A stretch of 26,348 bases of DNA, from positions 1 to 26,348 of the IMG/VR virus record IMGVR_UViG_3300036444_000016; one strand, given 5' to 3'. The position numbers and the translations under genes were made by a program. The stretch comes from a virus. Below, piece after piece: positions 16,299 through 23,957 of the stretch (its first letter is position 1; each line of letters begins with the position of its first letter). The notes beneath the pieces are model-generated. The model saw only the letters and a program-made list of their open reading frames with translations, made no database searches and was not told the origin of the DNA.

Positions 16299-17204
16299 AT
16301 GACCACCTATGGTGTGACACCCGCCGGCTTCGTCAGGAAGCCCCTGGCGGCGATACTTGACGACCTCGAGGCACGTGCCGCCTCGCCCGATGTGTTTGGC
16401 GCTGGCTTGATCCAAACGCCGGAAAGCCCGCTGGGCCTGCTCAACGCCCATCTTGCCTCGGTCGCCGCGACGGCGTGGGAAATCGCAGAGGCGACCTATC
16501 AGAGCCTCGACCCGAACCAGGCCGAAGGTGCGCGGCTGGACATGCTGGCCAAGCTGCGCATCCTGGCGCGCGCCGACGATGAGGGCGACGAGACGCTGCG
16601 GGCTGACATGCTCAATGCCGGCCGAGCCAACATCGATATCTCCGACCTGGTGCGCGCCGTGCGCAATACCGCTGGAGTGATCTGGTCACAGGTATGGGTG
16701 AACGACACGGCCTATGTCGACGCCAACGGGCAAGATCCGCACTCGATCTGCATCGCCGCGCTTGGCGGGGATGACGACGCTCTGGCGGCGATCTTCCGCG
16801 CCTATGTGGCGCCGGGCATCAGCTCGCACGGCAACCATCCGGTACAAACCGTGGTCGACGGCTTCTGCCAGACCTTCCGGCTGATGCGGCCAACCGAATT
16901 GATGCTGGGCCTGAGCTTGGAAATCCGGGCCTATGTGGACCGTAACGGCTGTTCTCCTCCCTCCAACGGGCAGATCGCGCAGAGCCTGGCAGCATATTTC
17001 GCCAGCGCCGACCGGCCGGCCAATGGCGTCGATATCACCATTCCGCTGCTGAACCAGATCATCGCCAGACTGTTCACCAACGTCGAGCTGGTCGGGGCCG
17101 AGGTGATCGATGCGGTGGGCGATTCCCATGCGCTGCCCTATGCGGTCGGGTTCGATGAGATCGCGACCATCGGCGCCGATGGCATTGTCCTGTCTCGGGT
17201 CTGA
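16299..17204 (+). CDS. Baseplate J-like wedge protein
   Basis: This 301-residue protein matches the gpJ/gp6 wedge family. It has the N-terminal YGVTPAGFVRKPLAAILDDL, then SPLGLLNAHLASVAATAWEI and LDPNQAEGARLDMLAKLRIL, which are hallmark elements. A central block ICIAALGGDDDALAAIFRAY is followed by a G-H motif in ISSHGNHPVQTVVDG, matching the baseplate J pattern. The C-terminus contains the VDITIPLLNQIIARLF helix and ends with an EIATIGADGIVLSRV-like strand. It should connect the inner baseplate to the fibre-bearing protein encoded next. Confidence 0.85.
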   Translation: MTTYGVTPAGFVRKPLAAILDDLEARAASPDVFGAGLIQTPESPLGLLNAHLASVAATAWEIAEATYQSLDPNQAEGARLDMLAKLRILARADDEGDETLRADMLNAGRANIDISDLVRAVRNTAGVIWSQVWVNDTAYVDANGQDPHSICIAALGGDDDALAAIFRAYVAPGISSHGNHPVQTVVDGFCQTFRLMRPTELMLGLSLEIRAYVDRNGCSPPSNGQIAQSLAAYFASADRPANGVDITIPLLNQIIARLFTNVELVGAEVIDAVGDSHALPYAVGFDEIATIGADGIVLSRV

Positions 17205-17207
17205 CCG

Positions 17208-18341
17208 ATGATCCAGGCGCGATATGCCTATGGCGAGGACTTCCGGTTCTCGCGCAGCATCGATCTGCCCTATGGCTATCTCTGGCGTGCCGTCGCCACG
17301 CTGCGCGACGAGGCCGGCGCGGTCCTGGGGCCGCTCGACTGCGCCGTGATCGGCGTCGAACCGGCGGAGATCGTCGTATTGGCTGCGCCGGCGGCGGTTG
17401 GGACCTGGCCCCGACCGGCGCCCAGCGGCGAGCGGACATTCTATTTCGACTATCAGGTCTATGACGCCGGCGGCGACACGGTCATGTCATCGGAGACCGT
17501 CGAACTGACGGCGGAGTTCAACACCTCCTATGTCGGCGATGTCGTCTCGCGCGAGTTCCAGAACATGCCGACCGAATACCGCGAAGCGCGGATACTGCTC
17601 GGCTATATGCGGGTGGTGCTGGCGGAGGTCGAGGCAGCGGCGCAGGCAACCGCGCGCATTCCGACGTTCTTCGATCTGGATACGGCCGTCGGCGACCAAT
17701 TGACGATCATCGGCAAGTGGCTGGGTTTTCCGCGCTGCCACTGCATCTGCGTCCCGAATCCGGTGTTTGGCTTTGACTGCGGCGGCTCGGATGCCTTTCC
17801 CGGTTCCATCGTCGGCTTCTGTGAGGGGGGCAACTGGCTCGGCTGTGACGGCGGCAGCCTGAGCGAATATTGCATCAGCGATGAGGAGGTCTACCGGGGC
17901 TTCCTGAAAGCCCGCCGCTATCAGATGTTGGGCTTATTTGACCGCGATAGCCTGACGGCGGCGCTGCGCCATGTTTGGGGGCTGAGCGCCTTCATCATCA
18001 GCGCCGATCGTTGCCGCGTCGTGGTGGCGCCTGGGCGCCCGCTCGATACCGACGAGATCACCCGCAACCAGATCCTCGGCCGCGTCCTGCCGATCGCGCC
18101 AGGCCTCGCCCTGGGCCTGTGGACGGACCAACGGCCGGTCTTCGGGTTCGGCGCGGGCTGGGCTGGCATGTGCGATCCGCCCGACAGCCAGACCAAGGTC
18201 TTCGGCTTCGATTGCGGCGGTGACTACGCCTACGAAGTCACCGGCTTCTGCGAAAGCGGCAGCACCTGGGCCAACTGTGTTCCACCGGCCGCTGGCCGGG
18301 GTGTCTGGCTTTGCCCGGACGATGCCAAAGCAACCTGCTGA
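17208..18341 (+). CDS. gpI/DUF2612-like baseplate fibre-attachment protein with extra domains
   Basis: This 377-residue protein has three parts. Residues 1-105 form a beta-rich domain with TWPRPA at 66-71, FDYQVYD from 80 and GDTVMSSETV near 90; the same domain is encoded alone at 19177-19509. Residues about 110-180 contain the DUF2612/gpI-like core, FREFQNMP-like helix, ATARIPTFFDLDTAVG and IIGKWLGFPR, the part that links the baseplate to fibres. The rest contains a repeated Cys-bearing unit, VFGFDCGG with GFCE and W then C, at 186-214 and 331-358. A helical DUF2612 tail lies between them. Eight or more cysteines make this unusual for a phage baseplate protein. It starts three bases after the gpJ stop. 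Confidence 0.75.
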   Translation: MIQARYAYGEDFRFSRSIDLPYGYLWRAVATLRDEAGAVLGPLDCAVIGVEPAEIVVLAAPAAVGTWPRPAPSGERTFYFDYQVYDAGGDTVMSSETVELTAEFNTSYVGDVVSREFQNMPTEYREARILLGYMRVVLAEVEAAAQATARIPTFFDLDTAVGDQLTIIGKWLGFPRCHCICVPNPVFGFDCGGSDAFPGSIVGFCEGGNWLGCDGGSLSEYCISDEEVYRGFLKARRYQMLGLFDRDSLTAALRHVWGLSAFIISADRCRVVVAPGRPLDTDEITRNQILGRVLPIAPGLALGLWTDQRPVFGFGAGWAGMCDPPDSQTKVFGFDCGGDYAYEVTGFCESGSTWANCVPPAAGRGVWLCPDDAKATC

Positions 18342-18352
18342 AGGATATTAAG

Positions 18353-19177
18353 ATGAAAACACCCATCAATCCGTGGGCCTATGCACCGTCGACCCAGCGT
18401 CGAGAACCAACTAGCACGGAAATTGCCAACGGATTTCCCTGCGGTCCCGCGGATCAGCAGCTATTTAACGAGTTGATGTATCGCAGCTCTCTTTCGGCGA
18501 GGGAAATTGCGACGGTCATCACGGGCGAAGGCATCGCGCTTGACGAGACGAAGGTCAACCAGCTTCAGCAAGCGATTTTCAAGACCATTCAGCGATATAA
18601 CGGTTCTCTTGGCCTCTACGTCAACGTGTCAGGGAATGATGCAAATGACGGCCTCACCGCTGCAACACCGTTGAAAACGATCAATGAAGTCATCGTTCGT
18701 TCGTTGGGATACAAGCAAGTGGCTGTTGTGCTCGGATCTGATATCACGATTACCGAGGCGCCGGTTCCGATCAATGGCACGAAGATTTCCTTCAATGGCC
18801 CAGGCGTTCAGAGGAACATCACCATTGCCCCTGGGGCTTGGGTTACAGACCCCGACGGATCGAAGCGGACGTTTCGGTTCATCGGCGCTTATGATCTGAA
18901 CTTCGATCGCATCAACATCATCAACAATGTCACGGAGTCCACAATGGATGCCGTGGCCTTCGGCGCGGGCGGGTTCATCTCCTTCACGAACGTCAGTTAC
19001 TATGTGGCGTCAGCCAGCGTTCGTCCGATGTTCTGGGGTGGCAATCTTACAGGCATAACCTCCAACAATCTCAACTTTGGCAATACCGATGCCGCTGGTC
19101 GCTTCTTGGTCAATGTTCCGGCCGGCGGCGATCCGAACGCCTATTGGCCGTGGAAAAGCAACCGGACGTCGATGTAA
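18353..19177 (+). CDS. Tail fibre/spike protein with beta-helix-like region
   Basis: ATG 18353 with GAAGGAT upstream gives 274 residues. The first 70 residues (INPWAYAPSTQRREPTST, then NGFPCGPADQQLFNELMY) resemble the N-terminal attachment region of phage fibres. From about residue 85, LYVNVSGNDANDGLTAATPL followed by KTINEVI is the classic opening of right-handed parallel beta-helix proteins, common in tailspikes and depolymerases. A series of short strands follows (GTKISFNGPGVQRNITIA, then IGAYDLNFDRINIINN). The helix looks short and no catalytic residues can be assigned, so a binding role is as likely as an enzyme. The stop overlaps the next ATG (TAATG). Confidence 0.72.
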   Translation: MKTPINPWAYAPSTQRREPTSTEIANGFPCGPADQQLFNELMYRSSLSAREIATVITGEGIALDETKVNQLQQAIFKTIQRYNGSLGLYVNVSGNDANDGLTAATPLKTINEVIVRSLGYKQVAVVLGSDITITEAPVPINGTKISFNGPGVQRNITIAPGAWVTDPDGSKRTFRFIGAYDLNFDRINIINNVTESTMDAVAFGAGGFISFTNVSYYVASASVRPMFWGGNLTGITSNNLNFGNTDAAGRFLVNVPAGGDPNAYWPWKSNRTSM

Positions 19178-19509
19178 TGCAGAACGTCCGCTTCAAGGCT
19201 GGCGACACCCTCTCTTTCGTGGGGCAGGTGAATGTCGCCGATGGCATCCAATGGGCCGGGCGCGGCAAAATCAGACAGGCCGATGGCACTGAGGTCTCAG
19301 ACCTCGACGTGTATCTCACCGGCGACCTGCAAAAGTGGGTGGTGATCGAGAAGGCCGCCAGTATCACGGCGACCTGGCCCAATCCCGCCACGCCCGGCGC
19401 CACCGTCGAGCTGTTCTTTGACTACGAGCTGTACGATCCGCTCGGCGACACAGTGCTGTCGTCCGAAACCGTCCGAGTGATCGTCGAATATGACCCGACA
19501 AGAGGATAA
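19177..19509 (+). CDS. Free-standing beta domain protein, paralogue of the gpI-like N-domain
   Basis: ATG 19177 overlaps the upstream TAA (TAATG) and gives 110 residues. It opens with MQNVRFKAGDTLSFVGQVNV, a pattern found in small phage proteins near fibres. It matches the first 105 residues of the protein at 17208-18341: TWPNPA at 66-71, FDYELYD from 81, and GDTVLSSETV near 91. Landmark residues lie at nearly the same positions in both. A TTG 33 bases earlier would extend the frame into the upstream gene and lacks support. I infer a structural adaptor between baseplate and fibre, but no function is proven. Confidence 0.68.
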   Translation: MQNVRFKAGDTLSFVGQVNVADGIQWAGRGKIRQADGTEVSDLDVYLTGDLQKWVVIEKAASITATWPNPATPGATVELFFDYELYDPLGDTVLSSETVRVIVEYDPTRG

Positions 19510-19511
19510 CG

Positions 19512-22500
19512 ATGGCTGATCTTGCCCCGCAACTCATTGCTGCAATCAAAGGTGACAAGGGCCTCTATCCGGTCAACGGCGGATATGTTTCGTCCGTGGC
19601 GTATCGCAAGGACACCGTCTTGCGGGACAACGGCAGTCAGTGGCGTGCGCTCCAGCTCGTGCCACCCGCGACGCCGCCGGCGGAAGGCGCTTATTGGACC
19701 AAATTCATTGATGGGACGCCCGTAGCGGATGCGGCGCAGGTAGCGGCCGATCGTGTGCTGTCTCAGGCGGCGGCAGCAACCGCTTCTGCCGCGATGGACA
19801 GCGTGTCTGCCAACGCGCTACTGATCGGCGGCTATGCGACGGCGGCGCAGCTTTCCGCGCAATCCGCTGCCGCCGTTTCGGGCCTCGCCAATCTCTCGGC
19901 CGCTGCGCGCGCGATAACGCTCGATAGCGGCGTTACCGCTTCATACATTTACGACACGACCCTTGATGATGTTCCAGAGTGGACGGCGAGTGTCACCAGC
20001 TCCCTGACCTCGGAACCGCTAAATGGCACGACTCGAGGCTCGAAAGCGCGCCATCCCAAGGTAATGGGAATTGCGGCGCTGGGTGTGGCGCGCCAATTCG
20101 TGATATATGACCTCGACGATCCAGCAGCGCCGGTGTGGAAGGCATGGTCTGAGGTGACCGGGGGGCCTTTTAACCTTAACACGGTGCCGCAGATTACCGC
20201 CATCACCGCGAAAAATGGCATTATTGAAATTGCGATGAGTTCCGCCGGAAAATTCGCGATCGATCTGGTGCTCGATAAAGCCGTGTGGTTCCGAAATGCT
20301 GTGACGCCAAACTGTGGTGTCTATCAGGGTAATTTGGCGGAACAGGGTAAGGGGTTTCCTGGCACACTGCCGCCTTGGTTCGATAATCCTTCACTCGCTA
20401 TTTTGAATGGGACCATCAATCACGTAGCGATGACCATTTTCCCGCAGATGCGACCAAACCCCGATCGATTCGGCATGCGGAATCCAACCTGTGCCTATGC
20501 CACAGCAGGAGGAGTCGGCATAATTCGACCCGATGGCGTCGCGATCAATTCTGCCTCGATATCGGCATTTGGTAGGGTTGCCTTTGACCGCAATAGCAAC
20601 CTTTATGTCACCTCGACGATAGGCTCCTCGTTCTTGTGGTTCGTTGACTGCCCGACCTATATGAGCGCCGCGTTTCCGCTTCAAAATCTCACGAGTGCGA
20701 GCGTTCCGGCCACCATGAACGGTTCGCCCACTTCGCCGTCTGTTATTCGGGCGGTTGGCGATCGAATTGCTCTCGGGGCAGGGACGGTCGGTCTGACGCT
20801 GTTGTCTCGGCATCGTGGCATTCTTACCAACAGCGCCGTTGATTACGTTGACGAGTTTCGAAATACCGGACGGCAGTTCTCCGCAGCCAAATTAGCGTGC
20901 GCGGAATCGAGCCGCCTTGTGGCGACGCTTCAATCGAACGAGCTGCTGCAGAATGGAAAGTTCGATACTGATCTGTCTTCCTGGGTCTCTGACGATCAAG
21001 GAACTGGATTTGCGCCGTCGACTTGGGACCTGGGACGAGCGAAGCTGGAGCGGGTCAGCGGAACCAACCGCGCTGGCCGCGCGCAGACGCCGACGACTGT
21101 CCTCTTTCAGATGTATTGCGTCACGACCGTGGTCAGTACAGCAGTGGGCTTCGTGGCTGTTGGCGCCACCGGATTTGTAGCTGGCGTAGGAACAACGAAG
21201 TTCTATTTTCGAGCATCTTCAACATCTACGGTCATTGCGCTGCGGGCGCGGGATGACGGCACGACCACCTACTTCGACGAGATATCCGTCAAGGCGGTTG
21301 CTACCGACTATTCTGCTGGGGGCAACCATCTTGAAGCCGTCGGTACGGTAAATCGAACGGTTGTTGCCGTCGGCGCCGAGCTTGCGGGCTACAACATGAC
21401 GACCGTCGGAAGCTACTTGAAGGGGCAAGCCGGCCAACTGAATTTCGGCACATCCGATTTCTACATGTCCGTGTGGACGGTCGGAGCAAATGCCAATCAG
21501 GGCATATTCCATTTCACGGACTACGTAGGAGGCACTGCGGACGGATCGAACACGGGCACCTATCTGGTCATCAACGGCCCGGGGCAGATGACGTTCTTGG
21601 TTCGAGACCCAGTCAATGGCGTTGTTTCCGCCCAAACTCCGGTTTCGACTTTTAACCCGGCAGCACTGAATTATACTGTTGCATGCCGGCGCGGGAACCG
21701 TCTCGAATTGTGGGTTAACGGTGCCCTCGTGCAGAGCGTGCCTGTGACGGCAACCGTGACCAATCTGGCGGCTGAACTGCTTATTGGAGCCATGTACTAT
21801 GGTGGCACTATTCAATTGCGCTTCGGCACAGGCATCATTTCCCTGCCCAGATATGGTTTGGGTGCGCCATCGCCTGATCAGATCAGAGCGGCTTATCGTG
21901 CTGAATGGGACATGCATCAGCCCGGTGCAAAATGCCTTCTCCAAGGCGGGTCGAATGTTCAAGACATCGGCTATGATCCAGATACTGATCTGATCTATGT
22001 CGCCAAATCGGTCGGCGGTACGGACGTGTTTCAGGGACTTGTCAACAAAAGCACGATCCTGAGCACGACCAGCATCAACAAGTTTCCCAACTCAGGCTTC
22101 GCGGGCACGATTATTGGCGGCCCGGGCGTCGGCAAGTTTGATCGGTCTGTGGCACTGCCGGCTATAAAGGACGGTGTCTCCCTGTCGATTACGAGCGCCG
22201 GCCCCGGCATTTTTGCTCTGAGGATCAATGGAACGGCGACCGCGACCAGTGGCATAACGTGGGGCCTTCAAAGTGCCTCAACCGGCAGCGCGACGGCTAT
22301 CAATCCTGGCGAGACGTGGATAAGCAGTATCGAATTTCAGCTTGCTGCGGGTTCGTTGACGGGCATCACGCCCATCCTTCGGTTCGATCGGCTCAATGCG
22401 TCAAACACCACCATTGGGACGTCCGGAGCGACAAGCCTTTCCCCGACTGGCACCTTCACTCGCTGGGCAACGACCGTGACGGCGGAAGCAACTTCCGTCA

Positions 22501-23138
22501 ACGGTACCACCATGTTTGTGGTCAATTATATCAATGGAGCTACGATCGATGCAACGATTCTCTTCCGTCAGCCTCAGGTAGAGAAATCGAGCAACTTCTC
22601 GGCTTTCGTCAGCGGTTTGTCTGGCTCGGACAACCACAAAGGCGTTTCCACGCATGACGGCAACGTGTCGATTGTTACAGGCAACGGCGTCGACGTGATC
22701 ATGCCAGCGTTGGCGCTGCGGGAGCGGTTGCGGGCCCGGCGGTCGATGGCGGCCAGCGATTCGAACGTCAGCCGTTTCAATGGTCGGATCACTTCCGACG
22801 CTACGCCAACCTTTCTTGGTGATCCGATTTATGTGCCGGAAGGCGGCAAGGTGGACGCCATCGTGTCTGTCACGGCCGCGGTGCCGGGCGGGACGGCCAC
22901 GGAATTATTGACCACACTGCTGAAGGTGCGCGCGAACCGCGATATCGGTGTATCGGCGGCGACGGTGTTCTGTTCGGTGATTTCCGGTACGCCGCCACTG
23001 CCCGACAAGACCACTGGCACGATGGATATTACTGTCGCTTCTATGGGTGGCGGCTGGATTAACGTGCGCGCAACTGGCAAAGCGGCGACCACGATTGAGT
23101 GGTTCGGAGAGCAGCGGCTTGTCCGCTCGGCAGCTTAA
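19512..23138 (+). CDS. Large multidomain tail adhesin with lectin-like modules
   Basis: At 1208 residues this is the largest protein here and the likely receptor-binding fibre. Residues about 22-70 resemble a small carbohydrate-binding module (VAYRKDTVLRDNGSQWRAL, then PPAEGAYW). An Ala-rich helix at 72-140 may trimerise. Residues 145-470 contain repeated strands suggestive of a propeller-like fold. A CBM4/9-like beta sandwich at about 475-600 starts with LLQNGKFDTDLSSW. A LamG-like domain at about 640-800 includes YTVACRRGNRLELWVNGALV. A second CBM-like sandwich spans about 853-1035 (NKFPNSGFAG to QPQVEKSSNFSAF), and a beta-rich end lies after 1075. Domain names are by pattern only. It starts two bases after the adaptor gene. 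Confidence 0.75.
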   Translation: MADLAPQLIAAIKGDKGLYPVNGGYVSSVAYRKDTVLRDNGSQWRALQLVPPATPPAEGAYWTKFIDGTPVADAAQVAADRVLSQAAAATASAAMDSVSANALLIGGYATAAQLSAQSAAAVSGLANLSAAARAITLDSGVTASYIYDTTLDDVPEWTASVTSSLTSEPLNGTTRGSKARHPKVMGIAALGVARQFVIYDLDDPAAPVWKAWSEVTGGPFNLNTVPQITAITAKNGIIEIAMSSAGKFAIDLVLDKAVWFRNAVTPNCGVYQGNLAEQGKGFPGTLPPWFDNPSLAILNGTINHVAMTIFPQMRPNPDRFGMRNPTCAYATAGGVGIIRPDGVAINSASISAFGRVAFDRNSNLYVTSTIGSSFLWFVDCPTYMSAAFPLQNLTSASVPATMNGSPTSPSVIRAVGDRIALGAGTVGLTLLSRHRGILTNSAVDYVDEFRNTGRQFSAAKLACAESSRLVATLQSNELLQNGKFDTDLSSWVSDDQGTGFAPSTWDLGRAKLERVSGTNRAGRAQTPTTVLFQMYCVTTVVSTAVGFVAVGATGFVAGVGTTKFYFRASSTSTVIALRARDDGTTTYFDEISVKAVATDYSAGGNHLEAVGTVNRTVVAVGAELAGYNMTTVGSYLKGQAGQLNFGTSDFYMSVWTVGANANQGIFHFTDYVGGTADGSNTGTYLVINGPGQMTFLVRDPVNGVVSAQTPVSTFNPAALNYTVACRRGNRLELWVNGALVQSVPVTATVTNLAAELLIGAMYYGGTIQLRFGTGIISLPRYGLGAPSPDQIRAAYRAEWDMHQPGAKCLLQGGSNVQDIGYDPDTDLIYVAKSVGGTDVFQGLVNKSTILSTTSINKFPNSGFAGTIIGGPGVGKFDRSVALPAIKDGVSLSITSAGPGIFALRINGTATATSGITWGLQSASTGSATAINPGETWISSIEFQLAAGSLTGITPILRFDRLNASNTTIGTSGATSLSPTGTFTRWATTVTAEATSVNGTTMFVVNYINGATIDATILFRQPQVEKSSNFSAFVSGLSGSDNHKGVSTHDGNVSIVTGNGVDVIMPALALRERLRARRSMAASDSNVSRFNGRITSDATPTFLGDPIYVPEGGKVDAIVSVTAAVPGGTATELLTTLLKVRANRDIGVSAATVFCSVISGTPPLPDKTTGTMDITVASMGGGWINVRATGKAATTIEWFGEQRLVRSAA

Positions 23139-23147
23139 GGAGCGATT

Positions 23148-23957
23148 ATGGATATCATCGACTTCACCAGCGGTGGCTTTGTCCACCGCTGGACCCTGCT
23201 GGCTGGGCAGCCGCGTTGCGTCGAGGACGCCATTCTTAGCAGTTACGCCGGCGCGCTGTCGGCGCTCCGGCGCAATGCCGCGATCCGCGCGGCCTTGCCG
23301 CCGGTGGCCGAATATGAGGCTGCTCAAGGGCTCGTGGGACAAGGCGAGCCCGACAACGGGGAGCCCAGGCAGGTGCCGGAAGTCGACGAGGAAGGCCAGC
23401 CGGTTCTCGTCGACGCTAGCCGGCCGATAATGGTCGACAATCCGGCATGGGCGCTGCTGCCGCGCATGGTGATCGTCACCGACCCTGAAACCGGCGAAGA
23501 GACCGAGAAATCGGAACCGCGCTGGGTGGCTTATGATGCGGCTGTGGCGTTGATCGCCGACGCCTCGCCTGTCGTCAAGGCGTTCGCCCTGTGGCGTCGG
23601 CCGGAGCCAGTCGAAGGCGAGGAAGGCCGCCTGGAATGGCTGGCGGCCGGACAGCTCGTCGTGGCCGCGATCGACGATGCGGCCGAAACGCCGCTCGAGG
23701 CTGATCCCCGGCCGGTGCCACAAGTGGTTCTGCTTTGGCGTGTAAAGGCCGTACTGGCGAACATGGGCAAGCTGTCGGCCGTCGATACGTTGATCCGGGC
23801 ACAGCCGATGGCGCTGCAACTCTATTGGTCGAACGGCGCGGAATTGGAGCGGACGCATCCGCTGCTGTCTGCGCTGGCTGTGTCGCCCGGTTTCGAGGAC
23901 TTCACGCCGGTGGCTATTGACGAGATGTTTCGCGAAACCGAAGCGCTGGGTATCTGA
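23148..23957 (+). CDS. Phage protein after the adhesin, possible fibre assembly factor
   Basis: This 269-residue protein starts at ATG 23148 with an AAGGAG nine bases upstream. The N-terminal part has IDFTSGGFVHRWTLLAG and a helix. Residues 60-120 are acidic and Pro-rich, likely flexible. The C-terminal region, with LYWSNGAELERTHPLLSALA and GFEDFTPVAIDEMFRETEAL, shows a pattern of tryptophan, then hydrophobic helix, then FTPxxIDxxF. This pattern recurs in small proteins encoded behind fibres in other phages. Position directly after the adhesin suggests a chaperone or attachment role. I recognise no named family. Confidence 0.55.
   Translation: MDIIDFTSGGFVHRWTLLAGQPRCVEDAILSSYAGALSALRRNAAIRAALPPVAEYEAAQGLVGQGEPDNGEPRQVPEVDEEGQPVLVDASRPIMVDNPAWALLPRMVIVTDPETGEETEKSEPRWVAYDAAVALIADASPVVKAFALWRRPEPVEGEEGRLEWLAAGQLVVAAIDDAAETPLEADPRPVPQVVLLWRVKAVLANMGKLSAVDTLIRAQPMALQLYWSNGAELERTHPLLSALAVSPGFEDFTPVAIDEMFRETEALGI

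Follow-up and report, generated by a model that had tools for sequence, protein, structure and literature searches.

Simple phage baseplates, such as those of Pam3 and Mu, mount one fibre type on the wedge, and we found no account in the literature of how a second, larger adhesin is carried on the same minimal wedge in the phage group considered here. The question is raised by a 26,348-base IMG/VR virus record (the window, meaning the whole stretch of DNA analysed), which carries contractile-tail phage genes for head, tail, baseplate, fibre and lysis functions and contains two copies of one beta domain, the first joined to a baseplate wedge protein and the second encoded by a gene of its own directly ahead of a large adhesin. 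Here, we consider what each of these copies might do.

The genes concerned all lie on the plus strand. A gpJ-like baseplate wedge gene (BW2; 16299..17204), whose Pam3 counterpart is annotated as baseplate wedge and which precedes the DUF2612 gene as a conserved neighbour in nearly all loci, is followed by the gene for a 377-residue wedge protein (17208-18341), in which the fused copy of the beta domain (residues 1-105; 17208..17522) precedes the wedge core (17523..18341). There follow a short fibre (18353..19177), which combines a Pam3 gp24-like N-terminal docking module with a probable beta-helix C-terminal part and has a weak PHROG tail fibre match; the free copy (19177..19509), a 110-aa beta domain protein and probable adhesin adaptor; and a 1208-aa adhesin, or second fibre (19512..23138). 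The ATG of the free gene (19177) overlaps the stop codon of the fibre gene by one base; its position is backed by an M-Q-x-V-R-x-K-A-G-D-T start conserved in three relatives, and only 2 bases separate the end of this gene from the start of the adhesin. The gene order gpV-W-J-I-fibre is common to the window and to Pam3, Rhizobium and Aminobacter phages, and, as part of the whole explanation that we tentatively favour below, the window would hold the baseplate/fibre end of a Pam3-like contractile tail. Beyond the adhesin lies a gene for a 269-aa protein (23148-23957), conserved in the related locus L086 and with weak matches only elsewhere, which is possibly a fibre-related or assembly protein.

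The wedge protein matches PF11041 (DUF2612) at E=5e-12 (46.6 bits, cut-off 23.5), and its residues 115-323 match Pam3 gp23 (7yfz_C) at E=4e-60; by these sequence matches, residues 112-377 are a DUF2612 baseplate wedge of the BW3 or gpI-like type. Pam3 gp23 (PDB 7yfz), clearly homologous to the core, likewise lies between gpJ-like and fibre genes. Close phage homologues (from Pam3, Rhizobium and Aminobacter phages) all match from query residue 112 onward, so the beta domain is an N-terminal addition to the wedge, an addition that Pam3 gp23 and nearly all relatives lack. Pam3 also differs from the window in having one fibre and a chaperone, with no adaptor/adhesin pair. Within the core, a Cys-rich segment is repeated at residues ~185-212 and ~330-357 (VFGFDCGG...GFCE...W..C twice); the repeat is also found in L003, L009 and L087, and a clear second copy is absent from the Pam3 and Rhizobium relatives. 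A further variant of the core occurs in L154/L163 (genome G686), where a 715-residue DUF2612 frame has the domain interrupted by a ~280-residue insertion.

The homology of the two copies, proposed in a preliminary description made from the window's sequence, is borne out. Residues 1-105 of the wedge protein align with the free protein (19177-19506) at 32% identity and 49% positives over 106 columns with 1 gap (BLASTP, E = 6e-20), and their Smith-Waterman score of 156 lies 27 s.d. above the mean of 2000 shuffles (26.4, s.d. 4.7, maximum 56). The motifs noted in that description are where it placed them: TWPxPA at residues 66-71 of both copies, FDYxxYD at 80-86 in one and 81-87 in the other, and GDTVxSSETV at 89-98 and 90-99, respectively. 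From this similarity, both copies probably have the same fold. The duplication is old, the DNA identity of the copies being only ~52%, and both copies are under purifying selection when compared with L086 (dN/dS ~0.13 for the fused copy and ~0.20 for the free one). The beta domain matches no Pfam, PHROG or NCBIfam family, a PS-DH match having been rejected as under its cut-off, and the free protein used as a direct query found no matches in 50,697 phage records and none in IMG/VR.

To place the domain among relatives, ~100 loci were collected from IMG/VR and GTDB genomes with a wedge-core profile, some of them being the same prophage in both collections. The beta domain is present in five, namely the window, L086 (Rhizobiales bacterium 62-17), L003, L009 and L087 (Roseiarcaceae). 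Fused and free copies are both found in L086; L003 has the fused copy on a contig that stops before the free-gene position; and L009 and L087 have the free copy only, with a normal wedge N-terminus. The fused copy of the window is 91.5% identical to those of L086 and L003, and for its free copy the figure is 91% with L086 and 56-60% with L009 and L087, compared with 32-43% between fused and free copies across these relatives. These loci (group 1) are few and related, amounting to two pairs of close relatives, and the fused branch of their tree is long (1.64 changes per column), so that the tree cannot root the duplication. Long open reading frames in L009 and L087 that seemed to fuse the domain to a fibre were rejected, since the frame there merely reads through into a free gene whose start is the conserved MQSVR. 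A DUF2612 scan of 398 Pseudomonadota genomes gave 12 positives, and the frames inspected showed no additional N-terminal domain.

It is the free copy whose partner is most readily identified. A module formed by adhesin residues 1-72 is found, among the ~100 DUF2612 loci, only in the window, L086, L009 and L087, always directly downstream of the free gene (4/4 loci), and the free gene is likewise found only there. This adjacency and exclusive co-occurrence support the earlier suggestion that the 1208-residue adhesin is attached by way of the free copy. Beyond the N-terminal module, the adhesins of the window and L086 differ from those of L009 and L087, which argues that adaptor and adhesin N-terminal module travel together as distal parts change. 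As L009 and L087 have the free copy without a fused one, the latter is not essential to adaptor use. In the distal part of the window's adhesin, residues 641-762 show a weak concanavalin-A-like lectin (Laminin_G_3) match, under the Pfam cut-off.

A second case of the same arrangement was found among the collected wedges. N-terminal extensions were judged in the 89 wedge genes with a clear core start, and a real one, of ~105-120 residues, is present in seven: three from the window's lineage and four from L053, L057, L064 and L069, which are IMG/VR phages treated here as group 2 and hold the only other real extensions. Those of L044 and L074/L097 look like out-of-gene start choices and not domains. 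In sequence, the group 2 extension is unrelated to the window domain (hhalign, 0.1%), and its model, predicted with good confidence (pLDDT 87.7), has jelly-rolls such as STIV A223 and carbohydrate-binding modules as its closest solved structures, whereas the window's domain gives an Ig-like model. Yet, as in the window, a wedge N-terminal domain is accompanied by a free homologue ahead of a second fibre: each of the four loci encodes, as a free protein of 96-97 residues, a homologue of the extension (alignment; phmmer, 1e-7 to 1e-12 for most pairs). Its gene lies between the short fibre and a second fibre gene, immediately ahead of the latter, and the N-terminal module of this second fibre is confined to group 2 loci. 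Extended wedge and free homologue are thus paired in all six loci whose downstream sequence is present, from seven extended genes in total. The fused and free copies of group 2 form two separate tree clusters (94/96 support), so that the duplication happened once, before the four phages diverged, and these therefore count as loci sharing a single event. The two groups look like independent arrivals at one arrangement, and its recurrence with an unrelated domain suggests a solution for mounting an extra fibre that has been reached more than once. Another DUF2612 phage encodes, right after its short fibre (L078:8010-8333), a small free protein of a third type (108 aa, with no family match) that has no fused counterpart.

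Building on the observed homology, gene order, co-occurrence, selection and recurrence, we propose the following account, to which as a whole we give a little less than an even chance. The short fibre would dock on the DUF2612 wedge by the usual contact, as in Pam3, and the free 110-aa beta-sandwich protein would act as an adaptor joining the adhesin, through the N-terminal module of the latter, to the baseplate. A duplicate of the adaptor domain would have been added to the wedge N-terminus in the window's lineage, where it would most likely offer the free adaptor and its adhesin a place, integral to the wedge, to dock or pair through like-with-like contact, with six such places per baseplate, distinct from the one used by the short fibre. 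Binding of the free protein to the N-terminus of the adhesin, contact between the two copies of the domain and the geometry of the whole are inferred; a matched docking role for the fused copy is suggested mainly by the fused/free pairing in two unrelated groups. A broader reading, which we consider rather doubtful, is that the BW3 of simple contractile-tail baseplates has on two or more occasions gained a duplicated fibre-adaptor domain N-terminally, the beta folds being unrelated and a free second-fibre adaptor always present alongside, and that pairing of wedge adaptor with free adaptor would be a general second-fibre mechanism. No description of fused/free pairing was found in the open-licence literature on DUF2612 or wedge adaptors. 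If true, a matched pair of fused and free adaptors, built from either of two unrelated domains, would explain simply, and in a testable way, how the second fibre is mounted, and the pairing would provide a sequence rule for predicting fibre and adaptor partners in metagenomic phages.

The predicted fold of the free domain leaves room for other roles. Its model, of moderate confidence (pLDDT 71.9), is all-beta and resembles Ig-like beta-sandwiches such as those of PapD and FimC, as well as many small phage proteins. Both copies might then be accessory Ig-like decorations that take no part in fibre docking but bind the host, through cell-surface sugars, or make the baseplate stiffer; host-binding variants of the DUF2612 wedge are indeed known, as in GP075 of phage K8 (PMC9887876). 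Decorations of this kind would not be expected to show matched fused and free pairs, nor the exclusive coupling of free gene and second-fibre module seen in both groups, and we regard this explanation as unlikely. Among the Foldseek neighbours of the same moderately confident model is a BppU domain protein, at a TM of ~0.47. BppU is an adaptor between baseplate and receptor-binding protein. The adaptor idea is shared with the BppU N-terminal domain, although BppU is known from siphophages and the tail encoded in the window is contractile; a BppU_N-type sequence match to the window domain was looked for in Pfam, and none was found.

A role in assembly is, in our judgement, less probable still. 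The free protein might be a chaperone for the adhesin that is not part of the virion, the fused copy then being functionally unrelated. It is small, its gene is tightly coupled to a fibre gene, and the Pam3 chaperone gp25 has an N-terminal beta-sandwich (PMC9608196). However, the free protein matches no chaperone family of the Tfa or gp25 type, its gene lies upstream and not downstream of the adhesin, and the annotation of a distant relative, from Roseovarius phage RPP1, is that of a structural protein; a chaperone role would, in addition, leave the wedge-borne domain unexplained.

The preliminary description had gone further and assigned each copy its own fibre: the beta-helix fibre would be attached through the fused copy, the adhesin through the free one. 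The layout invites this reading, given that the copies flank the short-fibre gene, the fused gene being directly upstream of it and the free copy preceding the adhesin. The assignment stands for the free copy and the adhesin, but for the fused copy it is contradicted by comparison, and as a whole we consider it very improbable. Residues 15-82 of the short fibre match Pam3 gp24 (7ypx_A/7yfw_a; phmmer, E=4.5e-6), aligning with the N-terminal helical domain by which gp24 itself docks the fibre to the baseplate (PMC9608196); the probable beta-helix C-terminal part of the window fibre has no match. In most of the ~100 loci, this N-terminal module lies directly 3' of a DUF2612 wedge, nearly always one without the beta domain, and L009 and L087 share with the window both the short-fibre N-terminus and the free copy but have no fused copy; the short fibre can thus do without the beta domain. 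The fibre of phage Mu docks on a loop in the core of the wedge protein BW3, and the N-terminal parts of BW3 and BW2 come together in a helix bundle that tail-tube initiator subunits hold between them, its apex lying near BW1 (PMC11915804). Judging by homology with this layout, a domain added at the BW3 N-terminus would sit away from the short-fibre loop.

Least probable of all, we think, is that recombination with the adaptor gene left behind, in the wedge domain, a fusion that is selectively neutral or drifting, as might be suggested by the absence of the domain from L009 and L087, which manage without it, and by the long fused branch, since purifying selection on the fused copy, its conservation in three contigs of the lineage and the independent parallel case in group 2 all speak against it. 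The length of that branch also means that the fused domain may have acquired another role.

The window domain itself may belong to a wider set of small proteins. A protein in another Hyphomicrobiales genome, L109, matches both the window-domain profile (E = 1e-5) and phrog_1084 (3e-10), providing a distant sequence link. Profile comparison of the window domain with phrog_1084 by hhalign gave 80-97% when this bridging sequence was included in the window-side profile and 3-25% when it was left out, and gp36 of Rhodobacter phage RcZahn scored above shuffles without the bridge. A PHROG search returned no matches up to E=10 for close relatives, and for P0002 only E=0.13, to another family. Kinship with phrog_1084 is accordingly likely but not established, coming mostly through one bridging sequence. 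The PHROG 1084-type proteins are small beta proteins of ~110 aa with no assigned function, encoded, like the free copy, directly upstream of a fibre gene. They are common in Hyphomicrobiales genomes (27 of 297), and in 23 of 26 loci the next gene, often for a fibre with collagen-like repeats, begins within ~17 bases, making the type a candidate for a widespread, unnamed fibre adaptor; this layout also speaks for the adaptor reading of the free copy. In the Hyphomicrobiales loci L110-L139, these small beta genes mostly overlap or abut the downstream gene, which often encodes a collagen-like fibre.
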